Shown here: positions 27,986 to 52,384 of the stretch, in pieces | Layout of the letters: every line of letters begins with the position of its first letter | How positions within the stretch are numbered: the stretch's first letter is position 1 | Source: Thermofilum uzonense | GTDB taxonomy: Archaea > Thermoproteota > Thermoprotei > Thermofilales > Thermofilaceae | Assembly: GCF_000993805.1 (NCBI RefSeq) | Contig: NZ_CP009961.1 | Span: 1,264,453 to 1,328,452 of the forward strand | Length of the DNA: 64,000 bases | Direction: 5' to 3' | Translations under genes and position numbers: made by a program | Notes under the pieces: model-generated | Databases searched by the model: none | What the model saw: only the letters and a program-made list of their open reading frames with translations | Told to the model about the DNA's origin: nothing

Positions 27986-28524
27986 AAGCCGAGAAAAAAT
28001 ACCTAATAGTCGGTGTAGGCAACTTACTCTATGGTGATGACGCACTAGGCCCTCTACTTGCCGAGTCGCTCGCGGAGTGCGGAGCTAACAGCATCAACGC
28101 CGAGACAGATGCCTTCACATCTGCCTCATACATAGAGGGGTCTCGATCGGTGATATTCTTAGATGTATTTGACCCGTCATATGGCCCTGAGGGAGAAGTA
28201 GTAAGAGTTAGGATAGATCCCAGGAAACTATCCCGAGAGGAGTTATCCCTACTCATTAGCCGTGAAACAGGTGCGCATGATGTCACACCTGCACATATTG
28301 TCGCGCTGGCATATGCCTCGGGTACATTCAATGGCGAGGCCTGGGTTATAGGACCCGTGGTCAAAGAAACAATGTTTGGCCAACCCCCAAGCAACATTGT
28401 AATCAACTCCATCGAAAAGATACTAGGAGTTTTAGAGGAAACACTACACGAGAAACTAGACAAAGACTGTGTAAGGAAAAGATTCAGTGAAAAAATTGAA
28501 GAGTTGAAGAAGAAGTTATTCTAG
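27982..28524 (+). CDS. Hydrogenase maturation endopeptidase (HyaD/HybD family)
   Basis: 180 residues. The family start GVGNLLYGDDALGP carries the first Ni-sensing acid; EAD/VIFLDVFD supplies the second and ETGAHDVTP the His. It checks that nickel is in the large subunit and then cuts behind the DPCxxCxxH motif, here releasing 15 residues of HynL. Overlaps the preceding unknown gene by 4 bp and runs 9 bp into the convergent ppsA. Confidence 0.9.
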   Translation: MKAEKKYLIVGVGNLLYGDDALGPLLAESLAECGANSINAETDAFTSASYIEGSRSVIFLDVFDPSYGPEGEVVRVRIDPRKLSREELSLLISRETGAHDVTPAHIVALAYASGTFNGEAWVIGPVVKETMFGQPPSNIVINSIEKILGVLEETLHEKLDKDCVRKRFSEKIEELKKKLF

Positions 28525-30993
28525 CTCGTCCACTCTTCTTGCAAACCTTGGAAGCTTCGGCTTCTCGCGTCTTACAGGCCAGCCAAGATCCTCTTCGACT
28601 CTCTCGATTCCCAGTGTCTTCTCCAATAGTATCCTGTGCTCTATCTGGGCCACAAGCTCCCTCGTCTGCATCACGACGTCGGGGTTAACGCTTATACTGT
28701 CTATACCATGTCTAACCAGGAACTCGCTAAATTCCGGATAAACGCTGGGGGCCTGACCGCATATGGACACGGTCCTGTACCCATATGGACTTTTGTGAGC
28801 CTTCTCGATAAGCATCGCTATTGCAGTCCTCACCGCGGGATCCCTCTCGTCAAAGTATCTAGGATCTATCTTGGGCAAGATGGCGGAGTCCCTGTCCGTA
28901 CCCAGCGTCAATTGGGTGAGGTCGTTGCTGCCGATGCTGAAGCCGTCAAAGTACCTTGAGAACTCCTCGGCGAGGAAGATTATGCTTGGAACTTCGGCCA
29001 TAGCCCATACCTTGAAGTCCCTATTACTCTCAAGCCCCTCCTCTGCCAAGAGCTTTACAAACCTCTCTGCCTCCCAGAGCGTCCTCACGAAGGGCGCCAT
29101 CACCCATACGTTGCCGAGGCCCATCTCCTCTCTAACCTTCTTGATGGCGCGCACCTCAAGCCTGAAGGCCTTCTCGTATTGCGGACTGATGTACCTGCTT
29201 ACACCACGCCAGCCGAGCATAGGGTTGTCTTCCTGTGGCTCGTATTTCTCTCCTCCCTTAAGCTGCCTGTACTCGTTGGTCTTGAAGTCACTGAATCTAA
29301 CGACTACTGGTCGCGGATAGATTTCACGGGCTACCAGAGCTATGCCCTCAGCCATCTTGTTAACGAGGACGTCGCCTCTCCCGCTTTCAAGGAGGTATAG
29401 CGGGTGCTCGCCCACATAGCTCGCCATTATGAACTCGACGCGCATCAGGCCGATGCCATCGAAGGGTAGGTTCTTATATTCCTTAATCTTCTCAGGAACA
29501 CCGAGATTCATGTATATCTTTGTTCCCGTGATAGGCTTGTAGATGATCTCGATCGGAGCGGCAGCAGCGGCAGCCGCCTTCTCCTCCTTCTTCCCGAGGA
29601 GCTCCTCGACACGCCCCTCATAGACCACCCCGGTCTTCGCGTCAACAGTGTACTCTTTCCCGTCAACCATTACCTTAGTCGCCTCTCTCGTGCCCACTAT
29701 CGCCGGAATACCCAGCTCCCTGCTAACAATGGCGGCATGCGCCGTCATTCCACCCTCATCGGTAACGATGGCCGCCGCAATCTTCATATACGGGACCCAG
29801 TCGGGATCGGTCATCTTTGTGACGAGGATGTCGCCGGGCTGCATCTTGGTTTTGGCGTCTTCAAGTGTGAGACAGATCTTGGCCTTGCCGAAAGCTACTC
29901 CAGGGCTGGCTGCAAGACCCTTAACAACTGGTTTGGCTTCCGTGACGCTTTTAACTGAGGTTGTCTCGGCACCCGTTTGCTGTCTGGTGCTCCATACCGT
30001 CTCGGGTCTGGCCTGGACAATGAAGACGCTTTCGGGGAACTTGAGGTCTCTGTCAACCGCCCACTCGATGTCCATTGGCCTCCCGTAGTGCTGCTCTATC
30101 TTTACTGCTAGCTCCGCTAGTCTCAGCACTTCCTCATCTGTGAGAGAGGGAGCATTCCGCCTCTCGGGTTCTATTTCGCGCTCAATGTTTTTGCCTGTCT
30201 TGGGGTCTCGCACAAGCTCCACCCTCTTCTCTACGATATTCCTCTCGACTATCTGCATGGACTTCTTGTCTACTACCCACTCGTCGGGGGTTACTTTACC
30301 GCTTACAACCGACTCGCCGAGTCCCCAGTGTCCCTCAATGACTATCTTGTTTCTGTCTCCAGTTACTGGATGGAGTGTGAACATTACTCCTGCAGACCTA
30401 GAGTTGACCATCTTTTGCACCGCAACGCTGATGAGGACTCTCTCGTGCTCGAATCCCTTAGATTCCCTGTAAAATATTGCTCTGGGAGTGAAAAGGCTCG
30501 ACCAGCACTTCCTGACTTTTTCGACGACATCGTCTTCGCCTTTGACGTTAAGATATGTTTCCTGCTGTCCAGCGAAGCTTGCGTCAGGGAGGTCTTCAGC
30601 GGTGGCGCTGCTACGTACGGCAACGAATTCCTCTGTCTTGCCGACGCGTTTGCTAAGCTCGCGGTAGGCTTTCCTTATTTCTTCTTCGATGTCTTTAGGC
30701 ATTGGAGTGCTCTCAATGAGCTTCCTAATCTCCTGGGATGCCTCCATGTAGTCTTCAGGCTTGGCTGCACCTTGAGGTACGTGTTTACGAATAATCTCGT
30801 ATATCTTGTCCTTAATCCCTTTCTCCTCTATGAACCTTTTATAGGCATAGGCTGTTACAGCAAAGCCGGGGGGGACTGGGATGCCTGCTCTTATCATCTC
30901 GCCGAGGTTGGCGTTTTTGCCACCAACTATTGGCACATCCTCTTTTGTAAGCTCTTCAAACCAGAGAATGAGTCTGGTATTCTTACCGCTCAT
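28516..30993 (-). CDS. ppsA: Phosphoenolpyruvate synthase
   Basis: 825 residues. N-terminal ATP-binding domain (GGKNANLGEM, then SARS-type VRSSATAEDLPDASFAGQQE), central phosphohistidine domain with TAHAAIVSRELG, and C-terminal TIM-barrel PEP-binding domain (SNDLTQL, VSICGQAP). It interconverts pyruvate, ATP and water with PEP, AMP and phosphate, serving gluconeogenesis or glycolytic ATP yield in archaea. An Ala/Lys-rich linker near 470 separates the second and third domains. TATA-like AGTTTTAAACC at about 31018-31030 gives a short leader. Confidence 0.96.
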   Translation of the reverse strand: MSGKNTRLILWFEELTKEDVPIVGGKNANLGEMIRAGIPVPPGFAVTAYAYKRFIEEKGIKDKIYEIIRKHVPQGAAKPEDYMEASQEIRKLIESTPMPKDIEEEIRKAYRELSKRVGKTEEFVAVRSSATAEDLPDASFAGQQETYLNVKGEDDVVEKVRKCWSSLFTPRAIFYRESKGFEHERVLISVAVQKMVNSRSAGVMFTLHPVTGDRNKIVIEGHWGLGESVVSGKVTPDEWVVDKKSMQIVERNIVEKRVELVRDPKTGKNIEREIEPERRNAPSLTDEEVLRLAELAVKIEQHYGRPMDIEWAVDRDLKFPESVFIVQARPETVWSTRQQTGAETTSVKSVTEAKPVVKGLAASPGVAFGKAKICLTLEDAKTKMQPGDILVTKMTDPDWVPYMKIAAAIVTDEGGMTAHAAIVSRELGIPAIVGTREATKVMVDGKEYTVDAKTGVVYEGRVEELLGKKEEKAAAAAAAPIEIIYKPITGTKIYMNLGVPEKIKEYKNLPFDGIGLMRVEFIMASYVGEHPLYLLESGRGDVLVNKMAEGIALVAREIYPRPVVVRFSDFKTNEYRQLKGGEKYEPQEDNPMLGWRGVSRYISPQYEKAFRLEVRAIKKVREEMGLGNVWVMAPFVRTLWEAERFVKLLAEEGLESNRDFKVWAMAEVPSIIFLAEEFSRYFDGFSIGSNDLTQLTLGTDRDSAILPKIDPRYFDERDPAVRTAIAMLIEKAHKSPYGYRTVSICGQAPSVYPEFSEFLVRHGIDSISVNPDVVMQTRELVAQIEHRILLEKTLGIERVEEDLGWPVRREKPKLPRFARRVDELE

Positions 30994-31197
30994 GTTTGTC
31001 AGGGTTAAAAGCCCTGCGTGGTTTAAAACTTTTCATCCTTAAGATCTTGTATTAATATATTAGGCTAGAATAAGGATATATGTTTGAGGGTGTTGAGGTT
31101 AGTTATACCTTTACTCGACCTGTGCAAAAGAAGGCGTCTCGGCCTGTACTATGTTTCGTGGACACAAAATTAAATAATTACGTTGGAGATATATGGG

Positions 31198-31248
31198 ATG
31201 CCCTCTATGACCGAAAGGCTCCCGAAAGGGGGCGTGGGGAGAGGGCTT
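31198..31248 (+). ncRNA. Candidate structured RNA (double-stem hairpin)
   Basis: Two nested stems: GCCCTCT (31200-31206) with AGAGGGC (31240-31246), and inside it GCTCCC (31218-31223) with GGGGGC (31228-31233) closed by a GAAA tetraloop. The internal loop is asymmetric (about 11 and 6 bases), a layout like a guide-RNA pocket. A TATA-like AATTAAATAA lies 25-35 bp upstream. The region lies between ppsA and the permuted tRNA and has no convincing gene. A plain ACA box is not obvious, so an H/ACA-type guide is only one option. Confidence 0.35.
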
Positions 31249-31274
31249 CACCGTTATGGATAGATAGAATTCTA

Positions 31275-31378
31275 GGCGTGCCCTTTTGAACCACCGACCT
31301 CGGGGTTATGAGCCCCGCGGGATACCTGGCTTCCCCACCCCGCTGCTGGTAGCGGGGGGTGGAATTTCAGGGCACGCC
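31275..31378 (-). tRNA. Circularly permuted initiator tRNA-Met (CAT)
   Basis: The 3' piece of the tRNA comes first. On the minus strand GGCGTGCCCT is followed by the 3' piece (31347-31363, TCCACCCCCCGCTACCA, including the CCA tail). Two bases GC come next, then the 5' piece (31344 down to 31285) from AGCGGGG through anticodon loop CTCATAA to TTCAAA, and then AGGGCACGCC. Joining the 5' piece to the 3' piece inside the T loop (59/60) gives a perfect tRNA: acceptor AGCGGGG/CCCCGCT with the initiator A1-U72 pair, and the GGG/CCC anticodon stem. The outer ends pair perfectly over 10 bp, forming the splicing helix. Such permuted tRNAs, including iMet, are known from Thermofilum pendens. Confidence 0.93.
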
Positions 31379-31399
31379 CTCACATATTAAATAATAAGT

Positions 31400-31410
31400 T
31401 ATTTTTAAAG
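31400..31410 (-). promoter_or_regulatory. TATA box of the permuted tRNA gene
   Basis: On the minus strand CTTTAAAAAT lies 22-32 bp before the 5' flanking helix of the permuted tRNA, the expected spacing for TBP/TFB-driven initiation. Confidence 0.5.
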
Positions 31411-52295: not shown

Positions 52296-52384
52296 GCCGG
52301 GGTAGCTCAGCTGGGAGAGCGCTCGGCTGAAGTCTCCCAGTAGAAACCGAGAGGTCCCGGGTTCAAATCCCGGCCCCGGCACCA
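52296..52384 (+). tRNA. tRNA-Phe (GAA) with a 13-nt canonical intron
   Basis: Acceptor GCCGGGG/CCCCGGC, D arm GCTCAGCTGGGAGAGC, anticodon stem CTCGG/CCGAG with loop CTGAAG-A. A 13-nt intron (TCTCCCAGTAGAA) sits at the standard 37/38 site. T loop TTCAAAT, discriminator A at 52381 followed by genome-encoded CCA. Repeat copy F begins at once behind it. Confidence 0.94.

Follow-up and report, generated by a model that had tools for sequence, protein, structure and literature searches.

The question raised by this locus is whether a tRNA gene whose 3' part precedes its 5' part supplies the initiator tRNA-Met (iMet) of Thermofilum uzonense, and, if so, how its transcript would be matured and how the arrangement arose. 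In the window (the whole stretch of DNA analysed, 64,000 nucleotides), the minus strand from 31379 to 31274 was found to carry a circularly permuted iMet gene including its pairing flanks, with the following features.

31402-31409, minus strand: TATA-like promoter element TTTAAAAA, 46 nt 5' of position 60 (consensus match only).
31370-31379, minus strand: leader arm of the outer flank helix (GGGCGTGCCC), pairing with 31274-31283 (covariation).
31366-31369, minus strand: 5' strand of the central helix, UGAA, pairing with UUCA at 31287-31290.
31363-31365, minus strand: 5' bulge AUU, with a predicted endonuclease cut at 31364/31363 (strict bulge-helix-bulge geometry, sequence).
31347-31363, minus strand: 3' part of tRNA-iMet, positions 60-76, with CCA encoded (sequence, homologue alignment).
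31345-31346, minus strand: intervening linker GC, 2 nt, from position 76 to position 1 (sequence; 2-23 nt in homologues).
31285-31344, minus strand: 5' part of tRNA-iMet, positions 1-59, without an intron (sequence, homologue alignment).
31308-31310, minus strand: anticodon CAU (sequence; G29-31 and C39-41 of the stem on either side).
31284-31286, minus strand: 3' bulge AAA, with a predicted endonuclease cut at 31285/31284 (strict bulge-helix-bulge geometry, sequence).
31274-31283, minus strand: trailer arm of the outer flank helix (GGGCACGCCU), pairing with 31370-31379.
28516-30993, minus strand: phosphoenolpyruvate synthase gene, just downstream of iMet, whose proximity to iMet is conserved in further Thermofilum genomes and which is also near the colinear iMet of genome G013.

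The order of transcription is the leader GGGCGTGCCCTGAAAT, TCCACC CCCCGCT ACCA, the linker GC, AGCGGGG...GGTGG TTCAAA, and AGGGCACGCC; the 3' part thus lies upstream of the 5' part on the same strand, as in a circularly permuted tRNA gene of type IV with a 59/60 joint. When rejoined, the halves gave a perfect cloverleaf without overlap or gap, in which all stems were paired, the T loop had 7 nt (UUCAAAU), and the initiator hallmarks A1-U72, G29-G30-G31/C39-C40-C41, and anticodon CAU were present. A preliminary description had proposed a permuted initiator gene with these properties. Its coordinates (3' part 31363-31347, 5' part 31344-31285) proved exact on the minus-strand sequence, and the two-base linker GC (31346-31345), the CCA encoded in the 3' part (ACCA at the end of positions 60-76), and the 59/60 joint, where the strict bulge-helix-bulge places the cuts, were all borne out. 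The two bases between the parts leave no space for a promoter there, and a single candidate promoter lies upstream of the 3' part; in most homologues, a TATA-like element was seen by eye and by a simple scan ~46-56 nt upstream of position 60. Just 3' of the trailer, there is a GC-rich, hairpin-forming stretch (window 31196-31260; GCCCTCT...AGAGGGC with internal GAAA loops), which had no Rfam match and is possibly a small RNA.

ARAGORN and Rfam at its gathering score missed the permuted gene, each calling just three tRNAs elsewhere in the window; below the gathering score, Rfam detected the 5' part alone at 17 bits. Elsewhere in the window (52296-52384, plus strand), a tRNA-Leu(AAG) call of ARAGORN is better read as tRNA-Phe(GAA) interrupted by a 13-nt intron, as obtained by ARAGORN with introns allowed. 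The genome consists of one closed contig, 1,611,988 bp long, as published for T. uzonense 1807-2 in a paper in which the word "permuted" is absent (PMC4673724). The preliminary description had noted that only one initiator tRNA is needed and that growth probably depends on this route. When the genome was searched for an ordinary iMet gene and all tRNA matches were read by eye, no second initiator tRNA was found; the remaining two tRNAs with a CAU anticodon carry G1-C72 in the acceptor stem and belong to elongator or Ile types. Furthermore, a 27-nt probe from the initiator 5' part (up to 3 mismatches) and the covariance model R1 each gave one match in the genome. Taken together, it is very likely that T. 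uzonense has its single initiator tRNA gene at this locus, circularly permuted in the T loop and presumably matured via a circle.

The leader, the trailer, and the T loop form a strict bulge-helix-bulge (BHB) with 3-nt bulges, AAA and AUU, and a 4-bp central helix. Its order is the outer helix GGGCGUGCCC:GGGCACGCCU, 3' bulge AAA, UGAA:UUCA, 5' bulge AUU, and T stem CCACC:GGUGG, where the leader RNA is GGGCGUGCCC-UGAA-AU and the trailer RNA after position 59 is A-GGGCACGCCU. The cuts predicted after the second base of each bulge would give exactly positions 1-59 and 60-76. Full pairing of the flanks over 10 bp had been described before; the pairing holds, whereas the register has to be corrected, because U31369, there paired with A31284, belongs to the central helix UGAA:UUCA in the strict BHB. 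The minimum-energy fold of the 110-nt precursor had a z of -4.6 against shuffles (0 of 200 as good), with a 6x6 internal loop where the central helix is expected. The BHB fold was 3.6 kcal/mol less stable than the predicted minimum at 37 °C; accordingly, the case for the central helix comes from geometry and conservation, not from the energy model.

Covariation was examined with 11 distinct homologue sequences of the permuted iMet. All 12 aligned pairs of the outer flank helix were changed on both sides, indicating that the pairing of the flanks is under selection. Paired cells amounted to 94.6% in these sequences, compared with 40-49% when the partner was slid. The number of pairs changed on both sides was 14 versus 8.6 in shuffles, the covariation score was 0.307 versus 0.093 in shuffles and 0.03-0.09 in the slid controls, and none of 500 shuffles reached any of the measures. 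The flanks diverge strongly among the homologues, yet remain complementary. In genome G016, a T-loop change of A57 to G is matched by a change in the leader, and CGAG pairs with UUCG, restoring the central helix. Genome G014 is an exception: its flanks form 14 perfect base pairs, yet their register is relaxed.

The homologues had been collected by a pattern search followed by R1; the first pattern required ACCA, whereas R1 did not. Full-length permuted iMet genes were found in 12 of the 27 genomes of the order, namely in all seven Thermofilum genomes examined, in other genera of the same family (G009 of genus g4, G012, G014, and G016 of genus g7), and in G019 of another family. The composition of the contig carrying the last copy (C19) agreed best with the other G019 contigs (r 0.87 versus 0.66 or less with Thermofilum), suggesting that this copy is probably genuine. 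The preliminary description had named T. pendens as the archaeon with permuted tRNAs; they are reported there, but the permutation is not confined to that species and is conserved in Thermofilum and several relatives. CCA is encoded in all permuted copies of the order, and in ~9 of ~45 other tRNAs of T. uzonense. Introns are absent from most Thermofilum copies; T. pendens, G009, G012, and G014 have one at 37/38 or close by, and G016 has one in the variable loop.

When 398 genomes of the phylum were sampled, the only further match was on a 7-kb contig (C10) of G349, a genome from outside the class. This match was not accepted as showing a wider range, since contig C1 of G349 carries a colinear initiator gene of its own. 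The tetranucleotide correlation of C10 was 0.64, compared with 0.85-0.93 for most pieces of the same size (one other small contig deviates too), and a DUF711 fragment on it shares 56-59% identity with Thermofilum proteins; most likely, C10 is a contaminating contig of a Thermofilales relative. This stray copy has no encoded CCA (A73-UCA), indicating that encoded CCA is favoured, not obligatory. On the opposite strand, the same locus (L322) has a 494-aa frame (476-1960, minus) that overlaps the permuted gene and has a LAGLIDADG-like motif, LLGLLTWYLGDGD, without a Pfam match; C10 carries a CRISPR-like repeat and a ParA gene as well. Other candidates were set aside. A scan with CCCCGCTACCAN{0,30}AGCGGGG was too loose, giving mostly chance bacterial matches among those listed; L077 and L133 were colinear initiator tRNAs of Desulfurococcales MAGs, and L167 (G025) matched the pattern by chance. 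The generic permuted-tRNA model R2 also matched ordinary and tandem tRNAs, such as a Ser/Phe pair at G013:C7:10298, and the convincing permuted genes among the R2 matches listed were initiators only.

Colinear iMet genes were found in genus g3 of the same family (G013 and G008), in two genera of family f7 (G024 and G026), and in family f3 (G018). In ten draft genomes, the initiator gene was seen in neither form, which gaps or introns may explain. Phosphoenolpyruvate synthase lies near iMet in T. uzonense, G001, G003, G005, and T. pendens. The colinear iMet of G013 is close to orthologues of the neighbours in G003 and T. pendens, namely phosphoenolpyruvate synthase and tryptophan-tRNA ligase (TrpRS, 72% identical). 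The presence of colinear and permuted iMet amid the same neighbour genes indicates that the gene changed form in place. The leaders of G019 and G001 share GCACGCCCTGAAA, a resemblance that suggests a common origin. In G008 (L201, contig C163, ~150-360, minus), a colinear iMet with a 37/38 intron is present, and 19 nt beyond its ACCA lies a decayed repeat of its positions 1-36. This duplicated 5' part, seen in one draft assembly, looks like the trace of a tandem duplication able to create or undo a permutation. We tentatively propose, as one possible history, that the permutation was ancestral to at least families f1 and f4 and was reversed in place in g3, where the only initiator gene would have switched form at one locus, with G008 holding a relic of the tandem duplication. 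Since permuted and colinear relatives occupy the same neighbourhood, origin and reversion become a tractable comparative question.

The endonuclease and the ligase of the pathway are encoded in the genome. RtcB ligase is present in one copy (C1:29258+), and the catalytic domain of the splicing endonuclease (EndA) in two paralogues (C1:1259564- and C1:1602895+), which would point to the crenarchaeal heterotetramer type. A tRNA-Asn gene missed by ARAGORN (C1:1553130-1553185, minus; L040) is interrupted at 59/60 by a 26-nt intron, whose strict BHB has the bulges AAA and AAU; the endonuclease is therefore expected to cut at this joint, by prediction as a routine matter in T. uzonense. Cutting, circle formation, and linker removal constitute the accepted model for the pathway, and by analogy with it, the following course is proposed. 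One transcript would start upstream of the 3' part, and its leader would pair with the trailer, forming the BHB together with the T stem. The tRNA-splicing endonuclease would cut both bulges, the leader and the trailer leaving together, and RtcB would join 59 to 60, giving a predicted 79-nt RNA circle that comprises the mature tRNA and the GC linker. Next, the acceptor end would be opened, for which RNase P, cutting at position 1, is the likeliest candidate; the 2 nt then trailing the encoded CCA would be trimmed last. RNase P acting first is our preferred order; the sequence of these steps and the nuclease that removes the linker are presumed. According to Tocchini-Valentini 2012 (cited in PMC3978253), a permuted pre-tRNA used as a test substrate is cleaved in vitro by an archaeal endonuclease. 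With linkers of 1-2 nt, the opening of the acceptor loop is directly testable in vitro.

The silence of the standard finders at the locus would also be expected of a degenerate fragment, a pseudogene, or an assembly error, with a normal initiator gene elsewhere. Such an explanation is extremely improbable and already refuted in practice, as the closed genome has the published length, no second initiator gene was found in it, and the same arrangement with covarying flanks recurs in 12 genomes. Maturation might proceed without a circle if RNase P or a tRNase first cut the acceptor hairpin, which has a six-base loop in the primary transcript; the two pieces, held together by the T stem and the flank helix, would then undergo bulge cutting and ligation as in split tRNAs. 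Split tRNAs are known in related archaea (PMC3218864), and the order of steps in archaea is not fixed by experiment (PMC3978253). We nevertheless regard this route as rather unlikely, since a circular intermediate has been reported in the red alga C. merolae (PMC4033280) and an early acceptor cut would presumably be sterically awkward with a 2-nt linker; maturation via a circle is preferred.

As for the origin, Chan et al. suggested lateral transfer of the permuted region for T. pendens. The patchy distribution agrees with such a transfer, G019 of another family being permuted while genera and families in between are colinear. The neighbour genes, however, are common within the genus, with phosphoenolpyruvate synthase near iMet in five genomes, and the colinear G013 gene has orthologues of the same phosphoenolpyruvate synthase and TrpRS in its vicinity. 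The change of form in place argues against lateral acquisition, which we judge quite unlikely. The dozen homologues show that, throughout a genus, the sole gene for the initiator tRNA has the permuted form, with a flank helix kept by compensatory change.

A permuted archaeal initiator tRNA gene as such is already published. The T. pendens iMet (G004, 539249-539271, minus) lies at the coordinates in Table 1 of Chan et al. 2011 (PMC3218864). The preliminary description had called for a comparison with T. pendens, which identified this gene as orthologous. No archaeal permuted tRNA gene beyond one species was found in the open-licence PubMed Central literature searched. The new elements here are the distribution, the covariation, the intron-free copies with 2-nt linkers, and the locus comparison with a colinear copy of a sister genus; tRNA databases and subscription papers may list some of them. 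The two genes share the 59/60 joint, the 17-nt 3' part, the encoded CCA, a single promoter, and single copy, and the 20-kb regions of both species share phosphoenolpyruvate synthase and several further genes. They differ in the anticodon-loop intron (none in T. uzonense, 15 nt in T. pendens), in the linker (2 nt versus 7), and in the flank sequence, whose complementarity is kept. On the basis of the joint, the homologous tRNA, and the neighbourhood, the T. uzonense gene is the orthologue of the T. pendens permuted iMet.

The 2-nt linker is no record, as T. pendens tRNA-Tyr has 1 nt (PMC3218864). The permuted tRNA-Tyr known in T. pendens was also found in five further members of the family (G009, G012, G014, G015, and G016), in genera g4 and g7, with linkers of 1-25 nt and flanks that pair. 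In T. uzonense, tRNA-Tyr is colinear with introns (C1:952681-952834, plus), indicating that the iMet and Tyr permutations differ in history within the genus. Archaeal 59/60 introns of the tRNA-Asn type share the cut sites, the bulges (AA^A and AA^U), and the enzymes with the permuted iMet; such an internal intron leaves a colinear gene, whereas the permuted iMet is a topologically inside-out version of it. The permuted tRNA genes of algae resemble the T. uzonense iMet in the 59/60 joint, the BHB at the ends of the precursor, and maturation via a circle, the T. uzonense circle being a predicted one. They differ in having no encoded CCA, linkers of 8-38 nt at the 59/60 joint, and unrelated tRNA sequences (PMC3978253).
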